From an uncultured Erysipelotrichaceae bacterium (GTDB taxonomy: Bacteria; Bacillota_I; Bacilli_A; Erysipelotrichales; Erysipelotrichaceae): a DNA stretch of 46,510 nucleotides. The notes below the pieces were generated by a model. It ran no database searches and had not been told where the DNA came from. It was given only the letters and a program-made list of their open reading frames with translations. Each line of letters opens with the position of its first letter. Position 1 is the stretch's first letter. The position numbers were made by a program, and so were the translations under genes. The stretch is taken from contig CANSQL010000018.1 in NCBI GenBank assembly GCA_947649125.1, positions 1 to 46,510 on the forward strand, in the 5' to 3' direction. Shown piece after piece: positions 7,361 through 46,471 of the stretch.

Positions 7361-7393
7361 ATAAAAGAAAAAAGCGCTAATCAGATAAGCGCT
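7361..7393 (-). terminator. Terminator of the V/A-ATPase operon
   Basis: AGCGCT at 7388-7393 pairs with AGCGCT at 7373-7378, and TTTTTTCTTTT follows on the minus strand. The stem overlaps the last codons of subunit D. Confidence 0.65.
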
Positions 7394-8003: not shown

Positions 8004-8005
8004 GA

Positions 8006-9448
8006 TTAAGCCTCATTTCCGGCAAGCTCTTTGATAACGGCAGCCTGTTTGATATGAAAACGCTTGACTGCTTGTTCATGATGATAAAATTCATCCAGCA
8101 CCTCATCATCAACACGATCCAATTCCTCACGCGGCAGTACCGATAATAAGTCCCAGCCTAAGTCTAAGGTCTCCTCAATGCTGCGGTTTTCCTGAAAGCC
8201 TTGATTTAAGAAATGCTCCTCAAATAAAGAACCGAATTCCATATAGCGCTTATCCGTATCACTGAGCTCATCCTCACCGATAACCGAGGCAAGGGAGCGA
8301 GCGTCCTGAACCTTCGCATATGCCGCAAACAGCTGATTGCTGAGTGCGGAATGATCCTTGCGGGTATAACCCTCACCGATGCCGTCCTTCATCAAACGAG
8401 ACAGCGACGGCAATACGCCGACCGGCGGATAAACACCGGTTTGGTTCAGATTGCGGTCCAGAACGATCTGTCCTTCTGTAATATAACCGGTCAAATCGGG
8501 AATCGGATGCGTGATATCATCGTTCGGCATCGTTAAGATCGGTATCTGTGTGACACTTCCCTTTGCGCCCTGAATAATTCCGGCACGCTCATAAAGTGAA
8601 GCCAAATCCGAGTATAAGTAGCCCGGATATCCTTTACGTCCCGGAATTTCTCCCTTACTGCTGGAGAATTCACGCAAAGCCTCACAATAAGAGGTAATAT
8701 CGGTTAATATAACCAAGATGTGCATATCATGCTCATACGCTAAATACTCAGCTGCCGTTAATGCACAGCGCGGCGTTAAAGTACGCTCAATGATCGGATC
8801 GTTGCTTAAATTGATAAACATCACGACCTTATCCATGACACCTGCTTCTTCAAAGCTGCGGCGGAAATAATCGGCAACATCGTTTTTTACACCCATTGCG
8901 GCAAATACGATACCGAAGTTTTTTCCGTCACCCTCTGAGATTCGCGCCTGCTTGACAAGCTGTACGGCAAGCTCGTTGTGCGGCATACCGGAGCCTGAAA
9001 AAATCGGCAGCTTCTGTCCGCGAATCAAGGTCGTCAAGGCATCGATGCTTGAAATTCCGGTATTGATATAATTTCGCGGATATACACGTGCGACTGGATT
9101 CAACGGACTGCCGTTGATATCCATGCTTTTTTCCGCATAAATATCGCCTAAGCCGTCAATCGGACGTCCCGAGCCGTTAAACACACGACCTAAAAGCTCT
9201 TTAGATAAAGGAAGCTCCATTGCCTTGCCCGTAAACAAAGTCTTTGTATTCGTCAAGGAAATACCGTTGGTTCCTTCAAATACCTGAATGACAGCGCGTT
9301 TTCCTTCCAGCTGTACGACACGACCTAAGCGTTTTTCACCATTATCTAAATGAAGCTCGACCATTTCCTCATAATGTACATCATCGACATCATCTAAGAA
9401 AATAAGCGGTCCGCTGATTTCACTTAAGCCTAAATACTGTATCCCCAT
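8006..9448 (-). CDS. ntpB: V/A-type ATPase subunit B
   Basis: A 480-residue non-catalytic head subunit (A3B3 hexamer). Family segments visible: [14 protein letters not shown] at the start, [43 protein letters not shown] (the degenerate P-loop typical of B), then [13 protein letters not shown] and [14 protein letters not shown]. An AAAGGAGG site precedes the ATG at 9448, which lies 15 nt after the subunit A stop. The length is slightly above the usual 455-465. Confidence 0.96.
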
Positions 9449-9463
9449 ACAATTCCCTCCTTT

Positions 9464-11215
9464 CTATTCAATCTGTGACAATGCCTCATCAATCATCGGC
9501 ATATACGTATCTAATAATTCGATATTGTTGTTTGGTACATCGTATTTCATTTTGATTACCTTATCAAACACACCGGTTTGTAAAATCAAGCTCATCGGCT
9601 TGCCTTGTGCCAATACCTGTTTACTTTGCTTATATAAATATAAGATGACGTCCATCATTTTCATCTGCTTCGCCAAAGGAACATACGTATCCTCCGCATG
9701 GAACGCATTTTGTTGGAGATAGCCGACACGAATCACTTTGCTGATTTCAATGACCAGCTTTTGATCATCAGGCAATACGTCGCTTCCGATCAGCTTTACG
9801 ATTTCCATCAGCTTTGTTTCCTCAGCCAAAAGTGCGGTAAGCTGCTGACGATTGCTCATAAAGCGAGAATCGACATTGCGCATATACCAACGGCTTAAGT
9901 CATTCACATATTCCGAATAAGATTCATTCCAGTTAATCGCAAAATAATGACGGGCATAGGCCAACTGCTTATCCAGGGCCCAGAAGCAGCGCACAAAGCG
10001 CTTGGTATTTTGCGTAACCGGTTCACTGAAGTCTGCACCCTGCGGTGATACGGCACCGATAATCGATACTGAGCCTTCCGCACCGTTTAATGTTTTCATA
10101 TAGCCTGCACGCTCATAAAACTGTGAGATACGAGACGGCAGATAGGCAGGAAAGCCCTCCTCTGCCGGCATTTCCTCCAAACGACCGCTGATTTCACGCA
10201 GTGCTTCCGCCCAACGTGAGGTAGAGTCAGCCATGATCGCCACATGATAGCCCATATCACGATAATACTCTGCCAGGGTCAAGCCGGTATAAATGCTTGC
10301 TTCACGTGCCGCAACCGGCATATTTGAGGTATTCGCAATCAATACCGTTCGATCGGTCAGCGGCTTTTGTGATTTCGGGTCCACAAGCTCTGAGAATTCC
10401 TCTAATACCTGCGTCATCTCATTACCGCGTTCACCGCAGCCGACATAAACGATAATATCGGCATCACACCATTTCGCAAGCTGATGCTGAGTCATCGTTT
10501 TGCCGGTCCCGAATCCGCCCGGAATCGCCGCAGTTCCGCCCTTTGCGATCGGAAACAGCGTATCGAAAATTCGCTGGCCGGTCACAAGCGGAATGGAGAT
10601 CGGCAAACGCTCTTTGACCGGACGTGCTGTTTTGATCGGCCATTTTTGGCACAGGCTCAACCCGACGATTTCCCCGTTATCCAAGCGCAGCTTTACGACT
10701 TCATCATGAATGCGATAAGCACCGTTTTCACTTACCCAAACGACTTCACCGCTCATATGCGGCGGCACCATTAAACGATGCTCAATCAAATCCGTTTCGG
10801 GAACGGTCGCATAAATCTGTCCGCCTGTCAAGAGCTCATTGACCTTTACCTGAATATTGACCTGCCAAAGCGCTTCCTCATCTAACGGCGCAACGGCACT
10901 TCCGATTTCAATAAAGGCGCCGCTTTCCTTTGAAATCGCACGCAGCGGGCGCTCGATTCCGTCAAAGATATTACGCAGTATTCCGGGTCCCAAGGTAACC
11001 TGAATCGGTTGATGACTGGCATAGACAGGCTCACCGGGCATCAGACCCGTAGTTGACTCATAGACCTGAATCGTCGTCAGTTCTTTACTGATTGAGATGA
11101 CCTCACCCATCAGTCTTTTATGTCCGACATAGACCATTTCCAGCATTGAAAATTCAACTGCGTTTTTTACTGTAACTACCGGTCCGTTTATTGAATAAAT
11201 AACATTTTCATTCAC
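9464..11215 (-). CDS. ntpA: V/A-type ATPase catalytic subunit A
   Basis: A 583-residue catalytic head subunit that binds and hydrolyses or makes ATP. The Walker A loop GGFGTGKT is at about residues 233-240 (Lys239), with the A-subunit-specific bulge domain before it. MADSTSRWAEALREISGRLEEMPAEEG holds the catalytic region and GAVSPQGADFSEPVTQ lies near the end of the nucleotide fold. The start is GTG (11215-11213) with GAGGTGATAAT before it. It is separated from subunit E by 103 nt, the longest gap in the operon. Confidence 0.97.
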   Translation of the reverse strand: MNENVIYSINGPVVTVKNAVEFSMLEMVYVGHKRLMGEVISISKELTTIQVYESTTGLMPGEPVYASHQPIQVTLGPGILRNIFDGIERPLRAISKESGAFIEIGSAVAPLDEEALWQVNIQVKVNELLTGGQIYATVPETDLIEHRLMVPPHMSGEVVWVSENGAYRIHDEVVKLRLDNGEIVGLSLCQKWPIKTARPVKERLPISIPLVTGQRIFDTLFPIAKGGTAAIPGGFGTGKTMTQHQLAKWCDADIIVYVGCGERGNEMTQVLEEFSELVDPKSQKPLTDRTVLIANTSNMPVAAREASIYTGLTLAEYYRDMGYHVAIMADSTSRWAEALREISGRLEEMPAEEGFPAYLPSRISQFYERAGYMKTLNGAEGSVSIIGAVSPQGADFSEPVTQNTKRFVRCFWALDKQLAYARHYFAINWNESYSEYVNDLSRWYMRNVDSRFMSNRQQLTALLAEETKLMEIVKLIGSDVLPDDQKLVIEISKVIRVGYLQQNAFHAEDTYVPLAKQMKMMDVILYLYKQSKQVLAQGKPMSLILQTGVFDKVIKMKYDVPNNNIELLDTYMPMIDEALSQIE

Positions 11216-11318
11216 ATTATCACCTCACAAGCTTCGTTTGCACAAGATATTTGCGCTCACTGTCAGCTTATCCTTTGTATTCAATCCTTAAGCATATCAT
11301 CGATACTTCGATATCTTA

Positions 11319-11909
11319 TTATGCAATCGTTAAAGCAGAGGTCTGTAAAAAGTCCTTACGTGCTTCAATCAAAGCACTGTCTAAGGTTTCATCGATCGCT
11401 CTTTCCTTATCCTTCAGCACAAGGCGAAAGCCGCCTAAGACAATATCATCAACGATTTCACCTGTCGCATGATTTCCGAGTATGCACAAAAGCTCCTTCA
11501 TCAGCACTTCATCATCTTGACCGAGCTGTAAAACAAGTGTTCCGTCCATATTCGTATAAGCGCTGATTTTTTCGGTAATCAGCTGTTGATACCGCTTATC
11601 CTTATGAAACTGCATCAGCTGCTGCTTCACCGCTTCAAACAGCTCCTCAACCATTAAGGAGCGCTCTGTCATTAAGCGGCGATGATTCTCATCGTTGATA
11701 TGACTCATGGCAACCGCATGGCGGGCACTCAGATCCTGTGCCTCTTGTTCAAACCAAAGCTTTGCCGCCTCTTGTGCGCCTTCATTGATTTCCTGTTCCG
11801 TGCGCAAGCGAATTTCCTTCATCTCACGCTGTGCTTCGGCAATTTCTGCCTCTGAGATTGCCGTTATTTCCGATTGAAAACATTTTAAAAGCTCTTCCTT
11901 TGTAATCAT
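11319..11909 (-). CDS. ntpE: V/A-type ATPase subunit E
   Basis: A 196-residue peripheral-stalk subunit. A long charged N-terminal helix (about residues 5-90, rich in Glu, Ala, Gln and Arg) pairs with the G/H-like subunit; a globular C-terminal part follows (GEIVDDIVLGGFRLVLKD, then RAIDETLDSALIEARKDFLQ), which is the family signature. AGGAG lies before the ATG, and subunit F ends 11 nt upstream. The length is typical. Confidence 0.92.
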   Translation of the reverse strand: MITKEELLKCFQSEITAISEAEIAEAQREMKEIRLRTEQEINEGAQEAAKLWFEQEAQDLSARHAVAMSHINDENHRRLMTERSLMVEELFEAVKQQLMQFHKDKRYQQLITEKISAYTNMDGTLVLQLGQDDEVLMKELLCILGNHATGEIVDDIVLGGFRLVLKDKERAIDETLDSALIEARKDFLQTSALTIA

Positions 11910-11920
11910 GCCTTCACTCC

Positions 11921-12229
11921 TTACAATTTCACGCCGATTGCTTCGCTCACATAGCGATCAATCGTTTCGCCTACCTTCGCCGAGCCGTGACGATCGGGAA
12001 TTTCCACAATCAAAGGCTTCGGCTGCTTTAATTTCAGCTCTGATATAATTTCGGGACAGGTCTGAATCAGCTTCGTTGTCATTAAGATAACAGCGATATC
12101 GGAACGCTTCATCGCCTGATTCAGCTCCCTTAATACCTCGTCTCGCTCATGGATCACAATGCCCTCGATACCCGCAAGACGCATTCCCATCTGCGTATCG
12201 ATATTATCGCTGAGCAGAAAAAATTTCAT
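11921..12229 (-). CDS. ntpG: V/A-type ATPase subunit F
   Basis: A 102-residue central-stalk subunit, called F in the general scheme and NtpG in the Enterococcus naming. It has a Rossmann-like fold: FFLLSDNIDTQMGMRLAGIEG at the start, a middle SDIAVILMTTKL strand and PLIVEIPDRHG. It contacts subunit D inside the rotor. Its ribosome binding site, AGGAG, overlaps the stop codon of subunit K, and the start lies 7 nt beyond that stop. Confidence 0.92.
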   Translation of the reverse strand: MKFFLLSDNIDTQMGMRLAGIEGIVIHERDEVLRELNQAMKRSDIAVILMTTKLIQTCPEIISELKLKQPKPLIVEIPDRHGSAKVGETIDRYVSEAIGVKL

Positions 12230-12236
12230 AACGCTC

Positions 12237-12689
12237 CTATAGCTTGATCATGATGATCAAAATAGAAATAATCAAACCGTAAATCGCAACACCCTCGCCC
12301 AATGCAACGAAAATCAAGGACTTACCGAAGTTCTTATCGTTTTCGGAGAAGGCACCGATCGCAGCCGGAGCCGCAGCCGCAACCGCAATACCGGCTCCTA
12401 ACGCTGACATACCTGTCGCAAGCGCAGCGGCAATAAAGCCAAGACCCTGCGCGATAGAGCCGTTCATCTGATTCACAGCCTCTCCTTCACCGCCGGCCGC
12501 TAATGCCGTAGCACCGTTGATGTTGAAAATCAAAGCACCGGCCAAAATCACAAAGAACAGTGCGATATGGGTAATTACACGAAGCTTTGCGCTTTTTGCG
12601 CTTGTTTTACCGCGAAACACATTCACAAGCGGTAAGCTGATTAAAACGATCAATACTAACGGTAATAATAATTCAAATGTATTCAACAT
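12237..12689 (-). CDS. ntpK: V/A-type ATPase membrane ring subunit K
   Basis: A 150-residue ring proteolipid with four predicted membrane segments. Only the second hairpin looks like a classic c-type unit: about 82-113 (GLGFIAAALATGMSALGAGI) and 123-149 with the ion-binding Glu132 in LGEGVAIYG. The first half (about 7-25 and 38-55) is hydrophobic but has no matching glutamate or glycine pattern. It therefore differs from Enterococcus NtpK as I recall it, which is a duplicated proteolipid. Similar short forms occur in other anaerobic Firmicutes as far as I remember. Gln81 and the residues around Glu132 do not settle whether protons or sodium ions move. Confidence 0.93.
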   Translation of the reverse strand: MLNTFELLLPLVLIVLISLPLVNVFRGKTSAKSAKLRVITHIALFFVILAGALIFNINGATALAAGGEGEAVNQMNGSIAQGLGFIAAALATGMSALGAGIAVAAAAPAAIGAFSENDKNFGKSLIFVALGEGVAIYGLIISILIIMIKL

Positions 12690-12701
12690 GATTCTTTCCT
12701 C

Positions 12702-14630
12702 CTACTCCATGTTTTTTAATGATTGAAATGCAATGCCGTCACCGCTGAAGTAACGGGAGAACATTTCATAAAATTCTAAACGCAATACTTGGATCCCTAC
12801 GATCATGCCCTCTAAGCACATAACGAACAGATTTCCGAAAATCGCCACTGCGATGCTTCCGGCGCCGCTTACCATTTCCATCAACAGCGTAACGACAAGC
12901 ATCATACCGGCATGTGACAATACGAAGCCGCCGACACGCAGATAAGAAATCGTATTTGTGATAAAGGACAGACAAACCTCAAACAGCTCAAAGAAGCTTT
13001 GCGTAAAGAAGCCGCCGAAGCCGTCCGGGAACATCGGTTTTCCTTTGACCTTATGCTCAATCGGCTCCTTTAGGAAAATCAGCAACAGCGGTAAGACGAT
13101 AAGCGCCAGTACATAAAGCTTAGAGAATACCGCAATACCGAAGCCGAATTGTGCCGCAGCACCGCCTAAAAAGGCGATATAGAACACAATACCGGCAATG
13201 CCGTTTTGTGAGAGAAGCAGCTCGCACCAATCCTTATGCTTGATTTGAATATACATATTGATCGACATGCTTAATACGATCAATACTGCACCGATCGCTA
13301 TGGCACAGATCAACAGCGGCATAATGAAGTCGCTTCCCATTACCTCAATCGGTTTTTCCTCTAAATGAAACAGGGATTGATACAGCGGATCAAGCAGATG
13401 CTCATCTCCGAATACCGAGCCGTATACAAAGCCGAACAGGGTCGATGAGATACCGATTCTGATGCCGATTTCACCCAGCTTCATATGCTTTAGTTTCGCC
13501 GCCAGCCAACCGACCAAAATCAATACTAAGCCCTGACCGACATCACCGAACATGATACCGAACAGCAGTGTATAGGTAAGTGCCACAAACGGTGTCGGAT
13601 CAATATCCTCATAATTGGGCAGACCGTACATTTCCACAAACATGGAAAACGGACGGGTAAACCAGCTGTTTTTCAGCTTTGTCGGCGGTGTAAAGCGTCG
13701 ATCGCTGTACGCAGGTCTTGCCGCAATTTCAACATCCTTGATGTCCGCAAAGACTGCTTCGATTTTTTTTACATCATCACTGGCCGCAAAGCCGGTAATC
13801 GTGAAACGCTCACCGAGTCCGACTACATATTTACGCGCTTCAAATGTATTTTCCAAAAACAACAGCCTTCCCTTGATTACCTGTAATCGCCCTTGACATG
13901 CTTGAATCATATCATCTCGCTCTTTTTCTATCGAAGCCAACTGCTGATAGTCGCTTTCGATTTCTGCCTTTAGGTTTTCCTCTGCCTTTTCCGGTGTATC
14001 ATGAACAAAATCCGGAATACGAATTCGTTCAAAATACAGTGATGACAGAATATTATCAACCTCACGCTCATATTTCGGCGTGGACAGTACCATACACCAG
14101 CTGTAGGAGCTATCCTCTTTAAACGAACGAAATACAAACGGCTGATTTCCGTAATACTGCAGCTTATCCACACTGTCAAGCGGCAAACGTCCGAAGCGCA
14201 CATTGACATATTTACAGGAGAAGATATCATCTAAGGAAATATCCATGCCTTCAATATTCTCCACTTGAGTCAGCGCATCCTTATTCGCCTGTATCACACC
14301 TTCAAGCTCTCTTTTTACTTCCTCTATTTCCTCACGCTTGCGCTCTAATTGTTCCATATAAGCGCTCATTTCATTTAAATCACACTTCCGGTCCTTGATG
14401 AATTCATTGTTGAGCGAAAGCCCTAAATTCACTTCAAGGTCCTTTAAGCGTGACAGAAGCTCACAATACGGATCCTCCTCCTGCAGCGTGGTAACACCAT
14501 GCACACTTTCCGCAATCTTTGTCGCCGGCTCAGGATGAAAGCAGTCCAGCTCTACAAAGCGTAACAGCACTTCATCCAGCTTGGCTCGGTCGGAAGTGAT
14601 ATTTACTAAATTCATTTTTGCGATTGCCAC
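12702..14630 (-). CDS. ntpI: V/A-type ATPase subunit I
   Basis: A 642-residue stator membrane subunit that provides the half-channels at the ring. The N-terminal 330 residues are soluble and rich in coiled coil (EQLERKREEIEEVKRELEGV). From residue 340 on there are about seven to eight membrane segments, with TPFVALTYTLLFGIMFGDVGQG and TNTISYLRVGGFVLSHAGM carrying the family motif with the Arg involved in ion transfer. The start is GTG (14630-14628), 7 nt after AGGAGG. An in-frame ATG five codons later lacks this spacing. Confidence 0.95.
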   Translation of the reverse strand: MAIAKMNLVNITSDRAKLDEVLLRFVELDCFHPEPATKIAESVHGVTTLQEEDPYCELLSRLKDLEVNLGLSLNNEFIKDRKCDLNEMSAYMEQLERKREEIEEVKRELEGVIQANKDALTQVENIEGMDISLDDIFSCKYVNVRFGRLPLDSVDKLQYYGNQPFVFRSFKEDSSYSWCMVLSTPKYEREVDNILSSLYFERIRIPDFVHDTPEKAEENLKAEIESDYQQLASIEKERDDMIQACQGRLQVIKGRLLFLENTFEARKYVVGLGERFTITGFAASDDVKKIEAVFADIKDVEIAARPAYSDRRFTPPTKLKNSWFTRPFSMFVEMYGLPNYEDIDPTPFVALTYTLLFGIMFGDVGQGLVLILVGWLAAKLKHMKLGEIGIRIGISSTLFGFVYGSVFGDEHLLDPLYQSLFHLEEKPIEVMGSDFIMPLLICAIAIGAVLIVLSMSINMYIQIKHKDWCELLLSQNGIAGIVFYIAFLGGAAAQFGFGIAVFSKLYVLALIVLPLLLIFLKEPIEHKVKGKPMFPDGFGGFFTQSFFELFEVCLSFITNTISYLRVGGFVLSHAGMMLVVTLLMEMVSGAGSIAVAIFGNLFVMCLEGMIVGIQVLRLEFYEMFSRYFSGDGIAFQSLKNME

Positions 14631-14643
14631 TTATGCCCCTCCT

Positions 14644-15684
14644 TTACTCTCGATCATATATCAGCATCGTCATTATTTCCTCAGGCGCAACCTGATAACG
14701 AACACCCTCGATAATATTTATTAAATTCTCGATTTCCCGCTCAGCCGTAAGCTGATATGCGGTATATACGATAGCCGGTGAACTGTCATAATGAAGATGG
14801 CGCTTTGCCAAATGATACTTGATTTGATCGGCATAATATTCAATATACACGTAATCCTTGTCATCGGTATGAAGATGATAAGGACTGTGCTCCAACAGCT
14901 TTAAAAATGCTTCCGCATCGCTGCAGCTCAGCATTTCATTCAGCTTGGCCTTCGGTATAGAGCCTTCACATTCCGTAAGTGATGCCCGTATTTCCTGTTC
15001 GCTCGCATGAAAGAATTTCTTAAAGCGGTATATTTTAGTGATATTATCAAGCTCTGTTCTTGTCGACCACATTTGCTTCAGCGTTTTTTTACTTTTTCCG
15101 CGAAACACCTGATCGATCGTTTCCGCAACATAGCTCATATAATATGCCTGTAATGCAGCTTCACAGCCCGTATAGTCAAAATCATCTTTTGCATTTATAT
15201 AAGGCGCCAGTAATTCTGCATACTGACTGTTGCTTAAGCCTTGAATCAATTCCTCTAAGCTTTGGACTGCAGCCAGCTTTTTCGTATCAAGCTTGGTATA
15301 TCTTGTTAAAACGGTAGGAAAATCACTTAATTTATGAGTGAAATCCTTAGAGAGAATCATGCGTATTCTTGCCAAAATCTGTTCGATTTCAAACTCCTTC
15401 AGTGCCGCAAGATAATATTGCCGCTGCTTACCGTCGACATAGCGGACAAGCTTATCTAAGCGCCGATATAAATCCATGCGCAGTAAATGCTCCAGCTGAC
15501 CGCGGTGAATCGTAGCCTCATGAACATCCTTCAGCGTTTCCGCAAAGCCTGTTTCATTTTTTAATACCTGCGTAAGCTCCGCAACACTTCGTTTACGAAT
15601 CAATTCCTCATATTGAGCAGGCTTGATTCTTCTTCCGTACATCGCCTTTGCCTTCGCACTGATTGCTCCTGACGATGATAGCAT
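14644..15684 (-). CDS. ntpC: V/A-type ATPase subunit C
   Basis: A 346-residue helical funnel-shaped subunit that connects the central stalk to the K ring (subunit d in eukaryotes). Family features are AISAKAKAMYGR at the N-terminus, YYLAALKEFEIEQILARIRMI and RTELDNITKIYRFKKFFHASEQEI in the middle, and the ERE.ENLINIIEG segment near the end. AAGGGAGG lies before the ATG. The subunit I gene starts 13 nt downstream. Confidence 0.92.
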   Translation of the reverse strand: MLSSSGAISAKAKAMYGRRIKPAQYEELIRKRSVAELTQVLKNETGFAETLKDVHEATIHRGQLEHLLRMDLYRRLDKLVRYVDGKQRQYYLAALKEFEIEQILARIRMILSKDFTHKLSDFPTVLTRYTKLDTKKLAAVQSLEELIQGLSNSQYAELLAPYINAKDDFDYTGCEAALQAYYMSYVAETIDQVFRGKSKKTLKQMWSTRTELDNITKIYRFKKFFHASEQEIRASLTECEGSIPKAKLNEMLSCSDAEAFLKLLEHSPYHLHTDDKDYVYIEYYADQIKYHLAKRHLHYDSSPAIVYTAYQLTAEREIENLINIIEGVRYQVAPEEIMTMLIYDRE

Positions 15685-32154: not shown

Positions 32155-35100
32155 TTATTTTTGCGTTTTACGCTTTTTATTTGCGGCTAATACAACGATG
32201 CCTGCACATAATGTCATCCAAGCATAGCCTGTAAACATTGTATTATCACCGGTGTTCGGTGTGTTGACACCGTCAGTACCTGGCTTCAAGGTTTGATTTG
32301 AATCTGATGATCCCGAAGGCTTATCATTTGGTTTCACCGGCTTTGTCGGTAAATCGATTGTTTTTTCCTCAAGGCCTTCGATGGCGCTTTCCAAAGCAGC
32401 CAATGCGAAATTGATTTCGCCTAAGGTCGCATGATCATCTGCCAATACTCTTTCTACCTCTTTGATTGCCTTTTCCAGTTCTGCTACACTTTCTTCGGTA
32501 TACTTGCTTGTATCAATCGCTTCCGCTTCTTTCAATGCTTCCGCAAGATTATTCTTATGATCTGCATTAGGCACTAAATTATTGATAGCTTTATTAATTT
32601 CAACAAGCATCGCTGCGATTTCTTCTGCTGTTCCGTTTGTTTTCAATGTCTTAGCCTGTTCCAACAATTCAGACAATACCAGATAAGATTCCTCAGTATA
32701 CTCAGAGGCATCGATATCCATATTCAACTTCTTATTCAATTCAGAAATATCAACCAAGCCTAAGATTGCATCCTCTGCCGCTTCGCTTAGTTCAATAAAT
32801 TCGTCCTTTAGCCAAGTGTCCTTGGAATTAGCTTGAGCCAATACTTCGGTTACCTTCTGATAACTTTCGGTTGTATAATCATCAGCGTTTACGTCCTCTA
32901 ACTGCTTGATCAAGGCCGCAAGCTCTTTCTTGGAAGCAGTTTCCACAAGAGCCGATCTTGCCGCCGCTAAATCGGAGGCAGCTTGATTCACTTCATCCTG
33001 CGTACCGCTTGCTTTTAATTTATCGATATCCAAGCCTTTATATACCGCTTCATAAGCTGCATAGCTATCTGCTGAATAATGCTCAGGATCAATTTTATCA
33101 AATGCTTTTAATTCGGCATTCAGCACCTTAACGCTTACTAAACCGGCATAGCGGTTCATCATTTCCTTCAGCTTCGCTTGCAGTTCAGTCTTATCGGTGC
33201 TTTCATCCGCTAAAGCCTCTTTCACTACATTAACGATTGCTTCGAACGGAGTGATGGAATCTGTTGTATAATCTGTTTTCTCACCCAGCACCTCAGTTTC
33301 AAACTTATTCAACTGTGCTGCTATGGAATTCATATCAAATGCTAAATTCTCATAAGCTTCCTCTAATGCTTCTAATGCTTCTTGTACAGCTTCACTGTCT
33401 GTAGGTGTCTTTAACAATTCCTTCGCAGCCGCTAATTTTTCAGCGAATACCGCATAGGTTGACTCTGTAAAAGAATCTGCCGTAATCACATCATACTTAT
33501 CAATGCTTGCCTTTAAATCTTTTGCATAATCGGCTAATTGATAAGCCTCTGTTAACACTTTATTTTGTTGAGCATATTCTAACGGAGTTGCAGTTGAAGC
33601 ATTGACCATATCTTGCGCATTTTTCAGTTCATCCTTCAGCTGCTGCAATATTTCAGCAGGGTAAAGTGTTTCATCAAACAAACTCAATTCATAGCTTATT
33701 TCTTCAATCGCAGAAATAAGGTTTTCCTTAGGAATTGCGCTGAATACTAATTGTGCACGCGCATTTTCCAAGGATTCAACAAGCATATCAACATCAGCTT
33801 CACTGATATTATCGGCTTCCTCGATTTCATTCTCTGCATATTGAATTGCATTTTGCAGTTTCATAAAGGTTGATTTAACATAAACACTGTCATCATTTTT
33901 AACTGCCTTTAATTCGTTCAATAATGTACGAACAGCACTTAAATCACCCTTTAGTTCCGGCTGATTCAAAGCCTTATCAAGCTTGCTTATCGCTGAATTT
34001 ACAACTGATTCGGAAACAAAGTCGTTTGCGTAGGTTGCTTCTGCATATTCTAATACAGTCCTTAAATTTTCTTTACTGTCAGTTGTCCATGTATCGGTAT
34101 TTACCGCCTTGGCAGAACGAATCAGATCATTCAGGCGTGTTTTATCCACATTCACGTATGCAACCTTATTGATTAAGATTTCTTGGATCGCAACCTCTTG
34201 ATCTGCAGTCCATTCAATTTTTACTGCTAATAAATGCTTCACTGATTCAGGTAAAGTATATTCACACAAGGCTGTATTTAAGTTTCCAAGCTCGATCCAG
34301 CGAGCGGTTGCTCTTGTGCTGTCTACCACTTCCGCATATATTTTTGCCTCAGAAATAGCGGTTGGAGATTGTAAAACAGTGATTTTATTTCTGTTTGTAG
34401 TGTCAGTTACTTTATATAACAATGAACCGGCTTTATTTGCAGTCGGCTTAAACGCGGTTGCCGTATTACCGTCTGCTACGTTTAAAGCATTGTATCCATC
34501 CCGAGCAGTCACTGTAGCCGTCACCGTCGGATCGGTCGTAGTAGCCAATGTTTGATTATTATTCAACTCAAATTCGGTGAATCTTACCCATTTATCGGCT
34601 CCGACCTTCGTCTTTGTAATTTCAAACTTGATATAACGAGCTTTCACATTCAAGTTGGCTGCTTCCTTCGCATTATATGAGATTTCATGTAGCGGCAATA
34701 CATCTTGAATCGTATCTGTGTTTTCCGCTTCACCCGGATTCGCTGTTCCGTCCTGATTACCGATAGTCATGATTTGCTTCCATGCGGTGCCGTCTTCGGA
34801 TACGGAAATTTTCGCATGACGAGGGAAATCCGTATTACTGTCTCTGGAAACTACTTTAAAGGTATTTAAATCGATTACTTGACCGAGATCATACGTTACA
34901 AATCTTCCTGCAGTTTGACTGCCTTGGAATACCGTTTCAGAAGTGCGATTCTTGTCAAACAGATTTTTATCGCCTGAAACAGTAAAGCCGCTTGCTTCAC
35001 TTAACTTTAATTCATAAATTTCATTTGAATTCACGATAAACTTCGTTAAATTAAATGTAACATCACTTGAACCGTTATTGATTAAACGAATATAGCGGGC

Positions 35101-38100
35101 ATTATCCACATGATTTTGATCTGTCACCGCTGTCCATATAACGCCGTTCTCGGAAATCTGTAAGGTTAAGCCTGATGCAACATCGACATCCAGTGTGGTT
35201 AAATCCTTTAAGCGCTCCAGCTTCACTCCGATGTATTCACCTGTCGCTAAAGTAATATCGGAATACGGCAACAGTGTCATCTGTTCCATGGTATGAGTAC
35301 CCTGTAATGAATTTAAAGCAGTTACATTTGTATATGTGTATTTATTGGTAGGAACACTTGTATTTTCCTCTACGTTAATTTCACCGAATTTCACCCAACT
35401 GCTTTTTTCTTGTTTATTTACCAAGCGTACATAACGAGCGCGTATTCCCGTTAAATCTTCATCAATGATATCCTGTCCGCTTGATACGCCGTTATAAGAT
35501 TTAAAGGTTGTCCAATTGACATTATCCTCAGAATATTCCAAGTCATATTTTACCCATTTATCGCCGCTGTCAATACCGACTGCCGCGTGAAATGATTTTA
35601 AATGTGCAACTCTGCCTAAATCCAAACCGATAAAGTCACCGACCAGCGCCTTATTACCGCTTAACTGATACCAAACACCGGTCGAATCATTACCGTCCAA
35701 CAATTCAGTTTCATTACCGCTCCAAATACCGAATGTTGATGTTTTAATAATTGTTTTTGAAATCGGTACGGAATCATCAATTTCACCGTCAAATCTGTCA
35801 ACAGAGATTTCATTAAACTGCCACCATACGTTTACCTTCTCGCTATTTCGTATACGAACCGCATCAGCTCTCGTTCCGTTTAAATTCACATCCAATTCAA
35901 AAGGAATACTATCCAATGTTTGGAATGTTTTCCATTCTCCATTAATTCGATACTCAATTACACCTTTGTTAATCTTATCATTGCTGCCGTTACCGTGAGA
36001 AATATGGACATTGCCGACCTCAATCGTATCATCGAATTCAACTCCGACCCAAGTATCCGCTAATGTGCTATCCTTATCGTCATCTGTGCTGTCGTTAGAA
36101 TGTGAAAAGCTGGCATTCGTAGATGTACTGCCGTCAATAATCTTATCAAGAGAACCGCTTCTGATTAGCATTTTATCGGTACTGTACATAGGTGTCATAC
36201 TAAATGCGCCGACATATTCCTCTACTTTGATTTCATTGATATGCCACCATTTATTTGTATTTTCATCAAGATTTCTGATGCGAACAGCATCTGCCTGAGT
36301 GCCTTTAAGATTTACAACCACTTCTGCACCCATGTTTGACATCTCTTTAAATGTTTTCCATGTCCCGTCAACACGATATTCAATCGCTGCGTTAGTCACC
36401 TTATCGCCGCTTGCCTGATACAGTCTCAATAATCCCAACGGTTGTGCAGAATCAAATTCTAAGCCGACCGCGGCGTCTTTATGAATTTCATCAACATTGC
36501 TCGGAGTCTTTGAATCAAGAAAATCTAAACCGGTCGTAGTATTACCGTCCACCAGTGCATCTAAATTATCACCGGAATACAAAACCATGTTTTCAATGAA
36601 TGGAGTACCCTTGATAATCGGGGTTCCTTCATCTAAACCGTTGATCACGATATCCCTGCAGCCGAGCCACATATTGGTCTTATCGGCCGTAGCGATAATT
36701 CTCACACCTTTTGCCTTTAAGTTCAAGCCTTCTACTTGTACCAAAGCTCTTGTATCCGAATATTCACTGCCGGCAATATCTGTCCATGTCTTGCCATCCG
36801 CAGTGTACTGCAGCTTTGCCGAATCAAACGTATCACGAAGATTGCTTGCGTGTGCCATCTTAAAGACAATATCATGGATATCGATGACTTGATTATACAT
36901 TACACCGATATAAGTCCCCGTTTCAGCACTGTTTGGATTTTTCCAAACCACCTCGGTACCCTCATTATTATCTAAGAGATTATCTAAGCTGCCCGAAGGT
37001 GTATCAGTACGATTTGTAATTACCTTAGCACTTACCTTACTCGGATCAAGGATGCTTCCGACGGAAAGAGACAGCTCACCATTTAAATATTCCGTGAACG
37101 GAATGATGCGTTTCGCACCTGCTTCCGCAACATCGATCTCATCATGTATTTTATAACGAATATGATTTTTAGACGCCTCAAATTTCGCTACGCCTGATGT
37201 ATAGTGGCTGACAGCTTCATCATTTTGATTATTTTCCAAAGCAATTGCACTTTGTATAAATTCAATATTTGCTTCACTGATTTCCTTCAGTGATAAACGC
37301 CATGAATTGATTTCTTCCTTAAATGCTTCATTTTTAGAAAGCTTATCAAAGTCATCACATGCTTTAATAATCTTTTCAAACTCATCGATTAAAACATTGC
37401 CCTTTTCAATAATTGAATCACCGTTATCAAATGCGGCTCTGAAATCATCTAAGAATGGCTTTAATTCCTCAGATTCAGCTAAGTTTAAACCATGTCCGTT
37501 AGGAGCAGGATCACTGAGATGCTTAGCCATTTCATATAATGCTTCGCCGGCATCACCATCAATGTATTTAAAGGAATCCTTCCAGCTTTTATCATCATTA
37601 AATGCCTTTACATTCCATGCATAGTCAGCGATCGCAAATAACGCTACTTTGCTTGCTTCCGCTTCCTGCATCGGATTTGTAACAACGCCCTCTAGATCTT
37701 CAACATTCACGTCAGTATGAAGTAAGGAGCCTTTTCCCATCATCAAACGCTTCATATTAATATCATTTACCGGCCAATTCAACCAAAACAGCGGGCTTCT
37801 GCGCGGACTTGCGCCGGCAGGCAAATCTCTTGTTTTAAAATTATCCAAAGTTCTTTGCTCAATCGGCTGACAAACAGCTTCACCGGTCCAGAAAATCTGA
37901 ATATCCTCATGGAAGCCTTGATCATATTCGTCCAATTCGCCATCTTTCCACCAAGCGTTGTTATAACCGGCCGGACAAAATACTAAATTATGCACATCGC
38001 CCTTTGAATCTACCCACTCTTGTAAGCGTTCCATTACACGAACTACGACCGAACGCGGCAAATCTCCGGAATCATCTCCTAATACACCGAATTGACGGAC

Positions 38101-38964
38101 ACCGATTCCGTAAAGCTGTTCAAACTTTGTGATGATCTTTACAATATCGGCTTCAAAGGTGCTTTCCGTGATACCGTTACTCATAAACGGGTGGATTGTC
38201 CATACAAAACGACATTTGCTGTCAATACCGGCATCGACCATTCTCTTCATTTCCGCAAGTCGCTCTGCCGGATACGGATCACGCCATCTTCCGCTGTGAT
38301 AAGCATCGTCCTTCGGCGCAAAGATATAAGCATTCATCTTAAATTCACCGCCGAATTGCATCAAGGAAATACGATCATCATCACTCCAAGGAATACCGTA
38401 GTACCCTTCGATAAAGCCCCTTGTTTTCGTAGAGGCAAAATCATCAATTCTTAAATTGCGAATCGTCCTTCCCTCAATCTGATTTAAAATATGCTTTAAT
38501 GAGGTCAAACCGTAAAATGATGCATCGGTATTTTTACCGAGAATCGCAATCGTCTTATCCTCTATTGAAACTATATGAGAATCCATTTTATCAAAAAATG
38601 CTTCATCGTGTGTAATGTTTTCATCGAAATAATGATCTACATAACCGTTAGAACCATTCGTTCCCACTAAAACATTGGTTACATTTGCCTTTACCTCATC
38701 TGAAACACTCATTGTGATGCCTTTTGCATCCACAATCTCCGTTAATCGATTTTTGGTAACATCATCGATTGTATCATCATATACCACATTGATCTCTTTG
38801 GAAATCACGAAATCGCCGCCGGAATACGTAATGGCCTGCGGAAGCGGATAGATTTCATACTCAGCTTCACTTGCCAAAGCATTCAATGCGCTCAATTCCC
38901 ATGTCGTAATAAACATGGATAACGATAACACTGATAATAATACCTTTTTTAGTTTTTCGCCCAT
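32155..38964 (-). CDS. Wall-anchored GH84 beta-N-acetylglucosaminidase (NagJ/hyaluronidase-like)
   Basis: A 2269-residue secreted enzyme, one of the largest in the window. Signal peptide (about 1-31, VLLSVLSLSMFITTW...ALA); N-terminal GH84 alpha/beta domain (about 35-180); catalytic barrel with GFIEGYYGIPWSDDDR and the catalytic pair Asp297-Asp298 in FGVLGDDSGD; a helical region to about 620; about seven F5/8 C-type beta domains (to about 1540); about eight helical FIVAR-like repeats; and the anchor TPNTGD (2235-2240), a membrane segment and a KKRKTQK tail. It would remove GlcNAc from mucins or glycosaminoglycans. AGGAG lies 7 nt before the ATG. No frameshift was seen despite the size. Confidence 0.93.
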   Translation of the reverse strand: MGEKLKKVLLSVLSLSMFITTWELSALNALASEAEYEIYPLPQAITYSGGDFVISKEINVVYDDTIDDVTKNRLTEIVDAKGITMSVSDEVKANVTNVLVGTNGSNGYVDHYFDENITHDEAFFDKMDSHIVSIEDKTIAILGKNTDASFYGLTSLKHILNQIEGRTIRNLRIDDFASTKTRGFIEGYYGIPWSDDDRISLMQFGGEFKMNAYIFAPKDDAYHSGRWRDPYPAERLAEMKRMVDAGIDSKCRFVWTIHPFMSNGITESTFEADIVKIITKFEQLYGIGVRQFGVLGDDSGDLPRSVVVRVMERLQEWVDSKGDVHNLVFCPAGYNNAWWKDGELDEYDQGFHEDIQIFWTGEAVCQPIEQRTLDNFKTRDLPAGASPRRSPLFWLNWPVNDINMKRLMMGKGSLLHTDVNVEDLEGVVTNPMQEAEASKVALFAIADYAWNVKAFNDDKSWKDSFKYIDGDAGEALYEMAKHLSDPAPNGHGLNLAESEELKPFLDDFRAAFDNGDSIIEKGNVLIDEFEKIIKACDDFDKLSKNEAFKEEINSWRLSLKEISEANIEFIQSAIALENNQNDEAVSHYTSGVAKFEASKNHIRYKIHDEIDVAEAGAKRIIPFTEYLNGELSLSVGSILDPSKVSAKVITNRTDTPSGSLDNLLDNNEGTEVVWKNPNSAETGTYIGVMYNQVIDIHDIVFKMAHASNLRDTFDSAKLQYTADGKTWTDIAGSEYSDTRALVQVEGLNLKAKGVRIIATADKTNMWLGCRDIVINGLDEGTPIIKGTPFIENMVLYSGDNLDALVDGNTTTGLDFLDSKTPSNVDEIHKDAAVGLEFDSAQPLGLLRLYQASGDKVTNAAIEYRVDGTWKTFKEMSNMGAEVVVNLKGTQADAVRIRNLDENTNKWWHINEIKVEEYVGAFSMTPMYSTDKMLIRSGSLDKIIDGSTSTNASFSHSNDSTDDDKDSTLADTWVGVEFDDTIEVGNVHISHGNGSNDKINKGVIEYRINGEWKTFQTLDSIPFELDVNLNGTRADAVRIRNSEKVNVWWQFNEISVDRFDGEIDDSVPISKTIIKTSTFGIWSGNETELLDGNDSTGVWYQLSGNKALVGDFIGLDLGRVAHLKSFHAAVGIDSGDKWVKYDLEYSEDNVNWTTFKSYNGVSSGQDIIDEDLTGIRARYVRLVNKQEKSSWVKFGEINVEENTSVPTNKYTYTNVTALNSLQGTHTMEQMTLLPYSDITLATGEYIGVKLERLKDLTTLDVDVASGLTLQISENGVIWTAVTDQNHVDNARYIRLINNGSSDVTFNLTKFIVNSNEIYELKLSEASGFTVSGDKNLFDKNRTSETVFQGSQTAGRFVTYDLGQVIDLNTFKVVSRDSNTDFPRHAKISVSEDGTAWKQIMTIGNQDGTANPGEAENTDTIQDVLPLHEISYNAKEAANLNVKARYIKFEITKTKVGADKWVRFTEFELNNNQTLATTTDPTVTATVTARDGYNALNVADGNTATAFKPTANKAGSLLYKVTDTTNRNKITVLQSPTAISEAKIYAEVVDSTRATARWIELGNLNTALCEYTLPESVKHLLAVKIEWTADQEVAIQEILINKVAYVNVDKTRLNDLIRSAKAVNTDTWTTDSKENLRTVLEYAEATYANDFVSESVVNSAISKLDKALNQPELKGDLSAVRTLLNELKAVKNDDSVYVKSTFMKLQNAIQYAENEIEEADNISEADVDMLVESLENARAQLVFSAIPKENLISAIEEISYELSLFDETLYPAEILQQLKDELKNAQDMVNASTATPLEYAQQNKVLTEAYQLADYAKDLKASIDKYDVITADSFTESTYAVFAEKLAAAKELLKTPTDSEAVQEALEALEEAYENLAFDMNSIAAQLNKFETEVLGEKTDYTTDSITPFEAIVNVVKEALADESTDKTELQAKLKEMMNRYAGLVSVKVLNAELKAFDKIDPEHYSADSYAAYEAVYKGLDIDKLKASGTQDEVNQAASDLAAARSALVETASKKELAALIKQLEDVNADDYTTESYQKVTEVLAQANSKDTWLKDEFIELSEAAEDAILGLVDISELNKKLNMDIDASEYTEESYLVLSELLEQAKTLKTNGTAEEIAAMLVEINKAINNLVPNADHKNNLAEALKEAEAIDTSKYTEESVAELEKAIKEVERVLADDHATLGEINFALAALESAIEGLEEKTIDLPTKPVKPNDKPSGSSDSNQTLKPGTDGVNTPNTGDNTMFTGYAWMTLCAGIVVLAANKKRKTQK

Positions 38965-43536: not shown

Positions 43537-43551
43537 CCATAAATCAGTATT

Positions 43552-43603
43552 TAAAAAAAGAAAGAAGCTTGATTTTTACCAAGTTCTTTCCGAGTGCTTC
43601 TTT
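43552..43603 (-). terminator. Terminator of the ceramidase-like/SIS operon
   Basis: AAAGAAGC/GCTTCTTT arms (43596-43603 with 43561-43568), followed by TCTTTTTTT on the minus strand, 13 nt past the SIS stop. Confidence 0.6.
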
Positions 43604-43615
43604 TGATTATTTCAG

Positions 43616-44350
43616 CTATTTCCAATAGCCGTAGTATTTGTCATATAAGGCTTCATTGTATTCATCGGCACCGTCGACATTGGAGCTTTTAAAAATCGGC
43701 GGATTGGTGCCTGATTCCACAAGCAGCTGAATCACCTGTGTAATCAAAGCCTGCGCAAGAGCGATTCCGATACAGTCGCTGGTTGCGCCGATCGGTGTAT
43801 CTAAGCCCTTGATCATATATCCGGCATCGCCCTTCGGGGAACCGTTGTCCAATACGACGTCCGCAAGCTCAAATAAGCGCTTACCGCAGGAATGACGCGA
43901 GCTTGTGGCGGCGGAATGTGCCATTGAGGTCATTGCGATCACATGACAGCCGACCTTTTTGGCTTCCAAAGCCATTTCCACCGGTACCGGATTGCGGCCG
44001 GAGTTGCTGATGATTAAAATCGTATCTTTTGCCTCTACCTTATACAGCTTGATCATCGCTGCCGCATAGCCTTCCAATCGCTCTAACAGCGTACTTTTGT
44101 TTGTCATTTCATGAAGCATCAGCTCCGGCGGTAAAATGGCCTTTACATAGGCTAATCCCCCGGCCCGAACATACAGCTCCTCTGCGATCATATGGGAATG
44201 GCCCGAACCGAAAACATAAAAACGTCCGCCTGCCTTACAGCTATCACTCACTAGCTTTGCCGCTTGAAGTAATGCCTCCTCTTGTGTCTCACTGACCTCC
44301 TTCAGTTTGTTTTGAACATAGCTTAAATAGTCCTTTACAACATGATTCAT
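43616..44350 (-). CDS. SIS-domain sugar-phosphate-binding protein (UPF0309-type)
   Basis: A 244-residue cytosolic protein with one SIS domain of the UPF0309 group. The phosphosugar-binding loops are FGSGHSHMIAEELYVRAGG and LIISNSGRNPVPVEMALEAKK. A conserved DNGSPKGDAG follows. Such proteins bind or isomerise amino-sugar phosphates; this group's reaction is not known to me. The start is placed at Met 44350 because GGAGG lies 8 nt before it. It overlaps the stop codon of the ceramidase-like gene (ATGA), so the two are coupled. It is the last gene of the operon. Confidence 0.87.
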   Translation of the reverse strand: MNHVVKDYLSYVQNKLKEVSETQEEALLQAAKLVSDSCKAGGRFYVFGSGHSHMIAEELYVRAGGLAYVKAILPPELMLHEMTNKSTLLERLEGYAAAMIKLYKVEAKDTILIISNSGRNPVPVEMALEAKKVGCHVIAMTSMAHSAATSSRHSCGKRLFELADVVLDNGSPKGDAGYMIKGLDTPIGATSDCIGIALAQALITQVIQLLVESGTNPPIFKSSNVDGADEYNEALYDKYYGYWK

Positions 44351-45621
44351 TTCTGATTCCTCCATTTCTTGATTTGTTCAACGATTTCCTTCATCAGCCT
44401 TTCACCCTCACCCTTCGCAAACGGACTGCTTGCGGCTTCATAATAGTGTTTATCATAAGCATCTGCATCGGCAATATACATTTGATAGCCGTTCGTATAG
44501 CTGATAAAATGGGTATGCGCATCCGCATAAGGATTACTGAGCTGAGAAAACAGCTCACCGGGAAAGCCGATAAAAATTTCATCGTTCAGCTTCAACATTT
44601 CTACATTCAGCGGATATTCTCGAATGCCTTCATCATGCAGCGCAAACAAATAATCTGCCGCTGCGCCTTCCACCGCATTTTCCAATAAACGAATGTCTTG
44701 CGTGCTGAGTCCTCGTGCTTTTCCCTGTTCCAGTTCAGCCTTGCGCTTTTCTACCGTCGCCTGTGCCGAATCGATCGACAGCGGTACTCTGCCCTTTAGC
44801 GTAAGTGAAAGCGTTGTATGCGCTAAAGTATGCAGGGTAAACGGGACAAGATTTGAACGCAGCTGTTTGACAGCCTGCGCAAGCTGATCGCCCATTCGCT
44901 TTACCTCTTGAAAATCACTGCCGCATCTTGTGAAGCGTGAGGAAATATCACCGCAGCTTCCGTTGAGATACATGCACATCGCATAACCTTCCTGTTCGAT
45001 TGCTTTCGCAAAAGCACCGCAGAAATCACTGCTGATATAACAATTGTCAGCCTTTAATATCGTCGGATGACAAGCAAAATTGACGATCAATGCTTTTTTA
45101 TCCGCATGCCTTGCTTCCATGATCCAAAGCGAAGGATCGCCCGGCAGCTCAGTATCATTGCGATTGGATCCGATACCCTCACATGCACCGAAGGCAATCT
45201 CAACACTTCCCTCACTCAGCTCACTCACTGCCTCACCGAGAGCACAAAGCGTCTGTTCACAGAGATATTCAATATAAGCTTGATCCACCTCACCAAGCAG
45301 ACTTTTAGCTGCCTTTAAAAAGCCGTGATTACTGTCAATGATTCCGCTCGGTCCCGAATGTGTATGAATCGCAGAAAAATAAAGCTGTGAAAAATGCAGT
45401 CCGCTTTGTTTACAGCGTTCCTTGACCCGATTTATCAGTAAATGATCGACAGCCAATAAATCATATGCCGCTATCGCATATCGCTTTTGATCGTGCTGAA
45501 ACACAAACACCTTTACATACAAATCATCATGAACTGCTTCGGCATTTCGTGTCACTGCATAGCCTGCCAGCTTACACGGAATACTCGGTGTAATCACCTT
45601 TTGCGCAAAGCCAAAGCTCAT
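44347..45621 (-). CDS. Cytosolic neutral ceramidase-like amidase
   Basis: A 424-residue protein resembling the N-terminal catalytic domain of neutral/alkaline ceramidases, zinc-dependent amidases. Expected active-site positions are present: His86 and His88 in IHTHSGP, His185 in FACHPTI, the Ser in GDIS (Ser227) as nucleophile candidate, Glu356 in GFPGE and a Tyr-rich loop (YTNGYQMY). There is no signal peptide and no C-terminal Ig-like domain, and it is shorter than secreted ceramidases (about 650). Since the SIS gene overlaps, a cytosolic amide-linked sugar derivative may be the substrate rather than ceramide; this is inference. GAGGTG lies before the ATG. Confidence 0.82.
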   Translation of the reverse strand: MSFGFAQKVITPSIPCKLAGYAVTRNAEAVHDDLYVKVFVFQHDQKRYAIAAYDLLAVDHLLINRVKERCKQSGLHFSQLYFSAIHTHSGPSGIIDSNHGFLKAAKSLLGEVDQAYIEYLCEQTLCALGEAVSELSEGSVEIAFGACEGIGSNRNDTELPGDPSLWIMEARHADKKALIVNFACHPTILKADNCYISSDFCGAFAKAIEQEGYAMCMYLNGSCGDISSRFTRCGSDFQEVKRMGDQLAQAVKQLRSNLVPFTLHTLAHTTLSLTLKGRVPLSIDSAQATVEKRKAELEQGKARGLSTQDIRLLENAVEGAAADYLFALHDEGIREYPLNVEMLKLNDEIFIGFPGELFSQLSNPYADAHTHFISYTNGYQMYIADADAYDKHYYEAASSPFAKGEGERLMKEIVEQIKKWRNQK

Positions 45622-45649
45622 AGTATCACCTCACCTGTTGATTAATTCA

Positions 45650-45679
45650 AGTATATCACATGTATATACATGTTGTAAA
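45650..45679 (-). promoter_or_regulatory. Promoter of the ceramidase-like/SIS operon with operator inside
   Basis: Minus strand TTTACA (45679-45674), 18 nt, TATACT (45655-45650). The spacer holds the whole 16-bp palindrome, so a bound regulator would block RNA polymerase. Confidence 0.65.
45658..45673. promoter_or_regulatory. GntR/HutC-type operator
   Basis: ACATGTATATACATGT is a perfect 16-bp palindrome containing GTATATAC, which fits the HutC-subfamily GTxTAxAC core. It lies between the divergent operon and the GntR gene. Confidence 0.75.
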
Positions 45680-45701
45680 TACAAAATTACTGTCTTAGTG
45701 C

Positions 45702-45730
45702 TATACACAAACAATAAAAATTGCTATAAT
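45702..45730 (+). promoter_or_regulatory. Promoter of the GntR gene
   Basis: TATACA (45702-45707), 17 nt, TATAAT (45725-45730); start codon at 45749. Confidence 0.5.
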
Positions 45731-45748
45731 AGCACCGGAGGAAACACT

Positions 45749-46471
45749 ATGACAAATAAAAAAGACGCTATTACAGCGTATATTGAAAATCATATCCAAA
45801 ATAAGCTCTATTCCCCCGGACAAATCATTCCGTCCGAATCCGAATTCTGTCGCTTATTTCATGTTTCACGTATGACGGTAAGAAAAGCACTGGATGAACT
45901 TGTTGCACAAGGCGTGCTGTATAAAGAAAAAGGCAGAGGTACCTTTGTATCACAAAAGCCTCGTTATGCTTCCTTTCAATGCGGCTACGGCTTTAAGCAG
46001 GAAGCATTGCGCAGAGGATTTGTGCCCTCGACAAAAGCTGTCACAATCAATTTAATCAAGGCAGATCATGAATTGGCTGATAAGCTCAAGGTTGAAATCA
46101 ATGAAGCACTGTGGGAGGTAAAGCGAATTCGCTGTATCAATGATATTCCGGTAGTTTATGTACATGAATATTATATCTATCATCAATGTGAGGATTTAAC
46201 GATAACGATTGCCGCAGAATCAATTTACGACCATTTGGCAAAAAAGAACATCAGCTTTGCGTTTGCCGATCAGCGACTAGAGGCAATTTTATGTCCTGAG
46301 GAGATTGCGAATGACCTGCATATTTCAGATAAGCATCCGGTGCTGTTGATGTCGGTGCTGGCCTATATGAAAAACGGTGTGCCGTTTAACTATGGTTTGG
46401 AATACTATGTAAGCGATCAGCTGCCGCTGATTCAATCGATCTATAATAAAAATAATGGTAATGTAAACTAG
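45749..46471 (+). CDS. GntR/HutC-family transcriptional regulator
   Basis: A 240-residue repressor-type protein. The winged-helix domain (about 1-70) has QIIPSESEFCRLFHVSRMTVRK and GVLYKEKGRGTFV, the GntR signature. A UTRA ligand-binding domain fills about 90-235 (VKRIRCINDIPVVYVHEYYI, PVLLMSVLAYMKNGVPFNY). The ligand is often a sugar phosphate or an amino compound. The start is placed at Met 45749 after CGGAGG. The frame is open to 45638, but these codons would lie across the operator and promoter. It is divergent from the ceramidase-like/SIS operon, which it probably represses along with itself. Confidence 0.93.
   Translation: MTNKKDAITAYIENHIQNKLYSPGQIIPSESEFCRLFHVSRMTVRKALDELVAQGVLYKEKGRGTFVSQKPRYASFQCGYGFKQEALRRGFVPSTKAVTINLIKADHELADKLKVEINEALWEVKRIRCINDIPVVYVHEYYIYHQCEDLTITIAAESIYDHLAKKNISFAFADQRLEAILCPEEIANDLHISDKHPVLLMSVLAYMKNGVPFNYGLEYYVSDQLPLIQSIYNKNNGNVN

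Follow-up and report, generated by a model that had tools for sequence, protein, structure and literature searches.

At its right end, contig CANSQL010000018.1 of an uncultured Erysipelotrichaceae bacterium (assembly GCA_947649125.1) encodes a module of three genes (positions 43616–46471): a ceramidase-like amidase gene, a gene for a phosphosugar SIS protein, and a divergent gene for a GntR/UTRA regulator. The window analysed was this whole contig (C18; 46,510 nucleotides), which belongs to a 2.41-Mb genome with 98.7% completeness. On balance, the module probably represents an inducible two-enzyme unit for a cytosolic N-acyl amino-sugar phosphate, on which the SIS protein and the amidase would act in turn. 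Three independent lines led to the amino-sugar phosphate reading: the NagS-type residues of the SIS protein, the NagR-like regulator, and the nag, murQ and transporter genes next to remote copies. Such a substrate, now better supported, had been put forward as an alternative to ceramide in a preliminary description of the locus. An amino-sugar phosphate is the likely substrate; which enzyme acts first, and by what chemistry, is proposed tentatively, and we infer that the activity is catabolic.

Gene arrangement

The amidase gene (44347..45621, 424 aa) and the SIS gene (43616..44350) are on the reverse strand, and the regulator gene (45749..46471, 240 aa) is on the forward strand. The preliminary description had already named an amidase, a phosphosugar SIS gene and a HutC-type regulator, and matches to PF04734, to PF13580 and NF002805, and to the GntR and UTRA domains bore this out. 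PF04734 and NF002805 each matched one gene in this genome, the amidase and SIS genes of the module. The second ATG of the SIS gene (44350; 244 aa), with a GGAGGA Shine–Dalgarno sequence 7 nt before it, is the more likely start than the upstream ATG (44365; 249 aa). The overlap between the amidase and SIS genes noted in the preliminary description is real, but probably consists of a 4-nt ATGA shared with the amidase stop codon, as an overlap of 19 nt requires the upstream ATG. The gntR start was placed at ATG 45749, after GGAGGA, and not at TTG 45638.

SIS protein

The SIS protein matched PF13580 (E 6e-49) and NF002805 (313 bits, cut-off 135). The nearest solved structure was PDB 3cvj, annotated as a putative phosphoheptose isomerase (BH3325 of Bacillus halodurans), with about 62% identity over 206 aligned residues. 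Identity with Streptomyces NagS (SCO4393), which has the same UPF0309/NF002805-type SIS fold, was 34.9% over 229 aligned residues. According to PMC12680351, from which the residue roles were taken, loss of H53, R64, E94, D179 or N228 abolished or nearly abolished NagS activity. All five were identical in the module protein, as were the phosphate serines S54, S119 and S121. NagS S91 corresponded to Thr92, and thus five of the six catalytic residues were identical. The two proteins differ in genetic context, since nagS lies beside dmdR1, whereas the module SIS gene is in an operon with the amidase gene and near that of a GntR repressor. The module protein thus lies below the identity of at least 58.7%, and lacks the nagS–dmdR1 synteny, that PMC12680351 describes for NagS.

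Elsewhere, four loci (L067, L068, L081 and L083) carried tandem arrays of at least two diverged SIS (NF002805) genes, whose products possibly form hetero-oligomers.

Ceramidase-like amidase

The only Pfam domain in the amidase was PF04734 (residues 12–211; 56.9 bits, cut-off 32.1). The ceramidase equivalog model NF041649 scored 19.4 bits against a cut-off of 1200, and its full-length architecture was absent. Neutral ceramidase is a secreted enzyme. Its solved chains (2zws and 4wgk) comprise 646–688 residues and have extra domains, whereas the amidase has 424 residues, begins at the catalytic domain, lacks the C-terminal Ig-like domain, carries an Arg-rich GDISSRFTR motif and has sugar-operon neighbours. 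No secretion leader fits the amidase, since its residue 4 aligns with residue 8 of 2zws (alignment only; no signal-peptide program was run). The protein is thus predicted to be cytosolic and free of a signal peptide, in agreement with the preliminary description.

The claim that all expected ceramidase active-site residues are kept was upheld by alignment. The zinc ligands H97, H204, E411 and Y448 correspond to H86, H185, E356 and Y382 of the amidase, the residues H99, R160 and Y460 to H88, R154 and Y394, and the serine nucleophile to S227, within the GDISSRFTR motif. The presumed nucleophile is followed by Ser-Arg-Phe-Thr-Arg in the amidase and by Pro-Asn in 2zws. Arg at +2 together with Arg or Lys at +5 was present in all 16 SIS-linked Bacillota amidases, and Arg at +2 in 42 of 52 amidases overall. 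A role of these residues as an anion contact is plausible from the alignment. The amidase does not belong to the NagA amidohydrolase family, as profile searches gave no PF01979 or TIGR00221 match. No relative was found in the viral contigs scanned, and a single-protein scan of genome contigs returned only one close relative. A single-sequence AlphaFold2 model (mean predicted local distance difference test score 38.6) was set aside.

Four alphaproteobacterial amidases (L084, L086, L087 and L092) have the sequence GD[AV]NTGH. Because Asn replaces the nucleophilic Ser, these may act through zinc-bound water alone. The Arg motif was rejected as a hallmark of every SIS-linked amidase, since the alphaproteobacterial ones lack it.

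Regulator, operator and promoters

The regulator matched the GntR (E 3e-18) and UTRA (E 5e-30) domains. Its nearest solved relative was NagR/YvoA of Bacillus subtilis (E 4e-32), of the same GntR/HutC family, for which effector and DNA contacts were taken from PMC4333415. The phosphate contacts R133, R135, S165, I166 and Y167 of NagR were kept as R126, R128, S158, I159 and Y160, with T90 of the effector site replaced by Lys83, and F89, Y228 and G69 were kept as well. By contrast, the contacts to the sugar of glucosamine 6-phosphate or N-acetylglucosamine 6-phosphate (GlcNAc-6-P) were mostly changed (E145 to V, R211 to V, E222 to N, S226 to E). Of the two arginines with which NagR reads its operator, R48 (which reads G−4) was kept and R38 (which reads G−5) was lost.

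The candidate operator is a perfect 16-bp palindrome, ACATGTATATACATGT (45658..45673), which fills the spacer of the predicted amidase–SIS promoter (TTTACA −35 box, 18 nt, TATACT −10 box; 45650..45679, reverse strand). A probable gntR promoter (TATACA, 17 nt, TATAAT) was located at 45702..45730 on the forward strand. The half-sites are six bases apart, as in dre sites, but the module operator has a TATATA core and no GG half-site. It carries G at −4 and T at −5, so the DNA contacts of the regulator fit the palindrome. Three sister species have the same palindrome as the window, base for base, and a single mismatch was found in G004 and in G025, a genome of another genus. The 12-bp core occurred exactly once in the 2.4-Mb genome. 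The single strong operator of the preliminary description was thereby confirmed. When up to one mismatch was allowed, 15 sites were found versus 8 for a reversed control, and for this reason no further regulon member is claimed.

In G005, gntR (L044, 10600–11326) contains an in-frame TGA where relatives carry Trp (TGG), which is a nonsense change, an assembly error or recoding.

Conservation and linkage across genomes

The arrangement of gntR divergent from amidase–SIS was intact in five of seven genomes of the genus (G000, G002, G004, G005 and G006), with amidase identities of 46–95%. The other two genomes (66% and 86% complete) had only other amidase types. The same arrangement was found in a second genus (G025, locus L047). 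It is a conserved functional unit.

A survey of the phylum covered 344 genomes with at least 90% completeness. The SIS family was present in 28, the amidase in 16, and both in 14. The SIS family thus accompanied the amidase in 14/16 genomes, compared with 14/328 genomes without the amidase (Fisher p 1.6e-15, although related genomes are not independent). A SIS gene lay within 250 bp of 8/24 amidase genes (0.12 expected) and within 8 kb of 11/24 (0.77 expected); this count excludes one partial SIS row that scored below the cut-off and treats two fragments of a single amidase as one gene. The recurrence of SIS genes that the preliminary description had set as a test was found, whereas GntR recurred only in the window clade (five species and G025). 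The phosphotransferase system (PTS) or ATP-binding cassette (ABC) sugar transporters named in the same test were absent from the surroundings in this genus and recurred near amidase or SIS genes of other clades.

In the SIS tree, all eight rows of the window clade, which spans two families (support 97/85), were adjacent to an amidase gene, and adjacency required 3 changes versus 9.8 after shuffling. The amidase tree had 52 rows, 10 adjacent to and 8 near a SIS gene; one alphaproteobacterial row (L085) had been lost during the picking of open reading frames (ORFs). Here the SIS-link label was unclustered (6 changes versus 6.2 shuffled) and the link occurred in several deep amidase clades, as repeated functional coupling would give.

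Neighbours of remote copies

Plasmid records matched the SIS protein in 42 cases and the amidase in 25. One operon was common to the five alphaproteobacterial regions opened (Devosia, Nitratireductor, Martelella, Ponticoccus and Microvirga). It comprised genes for a LacI regulator, a nagB/6PGL-like protein, a SIS protein, a nagA-like amidohydrolase, the ceramidase-like protein and an ABC sugar transporter. Two further Nitratireductor records agreed in matching coordinates only. In Devosia, the nagA and nagB models scored 179 and 112 bits, both below their cut-offs. A large amino-sugar cluster including a ceramidase-like gene was present in G182 (L068; G182:C6:17000-36900), in the order nagA, SIS, a penicillin-binding/beta-lactamase-fold hydrolase, murQ, three SIS genes, a mannose-type PTS, amidase, a second nagA and nagB. 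The amidase gene was divergent from murQ in G003 and, as read by eye, beside murQ in G001. In L064, a class-II aldolase gene and another SIS gene adjoined the amidase–SIS pair.

SIS genes without the amidase followed nagE-nagA-nagB-gntR in Planococcus, nagA-nagB-gntR in Priestia (with nagE divergent) and nagA in Rhizobium. They followed ascorbate-type PTS genes in Listeria, Lacticaseibacillus, Enterococcus and Carnobacterium. No nag gene adjoined the SIS gene in the regions opened in Vibrio, Agrobacterium vitis and Persicobacter, and the record of the Rhizobium lusitanum region was without annotation. No SIS gene was nearby in the amidase regions opened in Enterococcus raffinosus, Agrobacterium, Sphingopyxis and Haladaptatus.

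A second ceramidase-like clade without SIS genes (L057, L058, L032 and L041), which has PTS genes, RpiR-like regulators and YdjC/ChbG-type deacetylases as neighbours, may act on a phosphorylated oligosaccharide.

Proposed pathway and alternatives

A phosphosugar inducer, a phosphosugar substrate for the SIS protein and an amide substrate for the amidase are strongly suggested, and together these lead to an N-acyl amino-sugar phosphate. In the proposed pathway, the GntR repressor would bind the palindrome within the amidase promoter and keep amidase–SIS switched off until a sugar phosphate occupies the UTRA domain and lifts repression. The two enzymes would then be co-produced through translational coupling. 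Like NagS, the SIS protein would bind the phosphosugar at its dimer interface, where Glu95, His56, Arg67, Asp180 and Asn229 would open the ring and remove the C2 proton. The product would be an N-acyl sugar phosphate that is either dehydrated (2,3-ene) or epimerised. Cleavage of its N-acyl bond by the zinc amidase would next free the acyl group, as acetate or otherwise, and leave an amine or enamine for use in central metabolism. In Streptomyces, NagA deacylates the NagS product by promiscuity, as described in PMC12680351, whereas deacylation here would fall to a dedicated amidase. The job would probably be of the same kind as that of the NagA–NagB pathway, the removal of the acyl group and the nitrogen from an amino-sugar phosphate, but by unrelated enzyme families that coexist with NagA–NagB in several clusters and in this genome. 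A more specific version, which we regard as rather unlikely, is a third, hitherto unrecognised route for opening N-acetyl amino sugars: the SIS protein would make the 2,3-ene, the dedicated amidase would hydrolyse the enamide, and spontaneous loss of the nitrogen would yield a 3-deoxy sugar phosphate.

Several observations weigh against the pathway in which SIS acts before the amidase. Three distant NagS homologues from outside the Streptomycetaceae (26–36% identity) were assayed with GlcNAc-6-P, and PMC12680351 gives negligible activity for one and none for two; dehydration of GlcNAc-6-P itself by this SIS protein is therefore doubtful, and the sugar may be another. The partnership is also incomplete across the trees. 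In the DNA examined, 34 of the 52 amidase rows had no SIS link (in two of them, L086 and L087, a SIS gene annotated two genes from the amidase scored under the 100-bit bar), and 27 of the 52 SIS rows had no amidase. Alphaproteobacterial amidases have Asn for the Ser nucleophile and no Arg motif. No transporter or kinase gene adjoins the module in this genus. The G182 and alphaproteobacterial clusters encode NagA-type deacetylases as well as the amidase, and this genome has three nagA matches and, elsewhere, nagB; the amidase is consequently not simply a missing NagA. Finally, an Enterococcus faecalis plasmid (LR962301.1; L116, 6980–9966) carries a window-type SIS gene (58% identical product) followed by genes for a GntR regulator and a GlmU-like nucleotidyltransferase, with no amidase, an arrangement that might serve salvage or synthesis instead of breakdown.

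The main rival reverses the order of the two steps. The amidase would first deacetylate an N-acetylhexosamine 6-phosphate other than GlcNAc-6-P, such as that of N-acetylgalactosamine or N-acetylmannosamine, and the SIS protein would then convert the freed hexosamine phosphate into a ketose phosphate by deamination or isomerisation, in analogy to NagA and NagB or to AgaA and AgaS. AgaS is itself a SIS deaminase, a deacylase and a SIS isomerase are exactly the two genes needed, and the gene order is amidase–SIS. The aldolase and additional SIS genes in L064 fit this reading too, and nagA and nagB elsewhere in the genome serve GlcNAc, which leaves room for another amino sugar. We nevertheless consider it possible but doubtful, because the SIS protein is NagS-like and NagS itself is known to act on a substrate that retains the N-acetyl group (PMC12680351), and because SIS proteins of this kind are also encoded beside the complete nagA–nagB sets of Planococcus and Priestia. 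Salvage of amino sugars or synthesis of cell-surface sugars, in which a deacylated and isomerised sugar is re-activated by a GlmU-like nucleotidyltransferase, would explain why a gene of that type overlaps the SIS gene in G025 (L047) and follows SIS–gntR on the E. faecalis plasmid. Yet none of the sister species opened has such a gene beside the module, the nucleotide-binding glycines seem, by eye, to be missing from the E. faecalis protein, and control by a repressor better suits breakdown, which makes this explanation highly improbable.

The murQ genes in the G182 cluster, where a penicillin-binding/beta-lactamase-like hydrolase is also encoded, and beside the amidase in G003 and G001 raise the question of peptidoglycan fragments, with the amidase cutting the lactyl or peptide amide of a muramic-acid derivative instead of the N-acetyl bond. 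We judge this improbable, since neither the window-type clusters nor the opened alphaproteobacterial operons showed a murQ gene, and the sole TIGR00274 match in this genome is the module's own SIS protein (19 bits, cut-off 302). N-acetylmuramic acid 6-phosphate was rejected as a substrate in this genome for want of murQ. The ceramidase fold family and the complete catalytic set would suit a true ceramidase or another lipid amidase with SIS and GntR neighbours by accident. Such an enzyme would have to lack a signal peptide and C-terminal domain, score far below the NF041649 cut-off, share a promoter and an ATGA overlap with a SIS gene, and belong to a family linked to SIS genes far above chance. 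This coincidence is extremely improbable, and ceramide, rejected here on the same grounds, is an unlikely substrate.

Surrounding genes

A terminator-like hairpin followed by a T run was predicted by RNA folding after the SIS gene (approximate limits 43550..43600, reverse strand; z −3.14 for 43538–43612). polC, downstream of the SIS gene, is for this reason probably a separate transcript, and both polC and the GH84 gene beyond it were rejected as members of the operon. The GH84 gene (32155–38964, reverse strand), two genes downstream of the module with polC in between, encodes a 2269-aa beta-N-acetylglucosaminidase with five F5/8 C domains and an LPXTG-like end. The order module–polC–GH84 also occurred in G002, G006 and, with an extra gene inserted, G005. 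Beyond position 46510, where the preliminary description had suggested looking for a transporter, none adjoined the module in sister genomes; a sodium/calcium exchanger gene and housekeeping-looking genes were found past the contig end instead. Eight ORFs at 7377–15684 (reverse strand) resembled a V-type ATPase operon in size and order, as judged by length only.

Significance

The module unites known protein families in a combination for which searches of open-access PubMed Central found no description; no paper pairing a ceramidase-like with a SIS gene came up, nor was an account found of amino-sugar use in this amidase family. If the third route outlined above were true, what is a toxic side-reaction in Streptomyces would in this case amount to a regulated pathway, with a spread over Bacillota and Alphaproteobacteria. 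The module also supplies a partner enzyme and a regulator for finding the substrate of the NagS homologues outside Streptomyces that are inactive or almost inactive on GlcNAc-6-P. Remote copies carry the database names "neutral/alkaline non-lysosomal ceramidase N-terminal domain-containing protein" and "sugar isomerase domain-containing protein", which hint at a role in sphingolipid metabolism among bacteria of gut and soil. The evidence presented here places this amidase sub-branch in amino-sugar metabolism, and predictions of ceramidase activity drawn from it would therefore be wrong.

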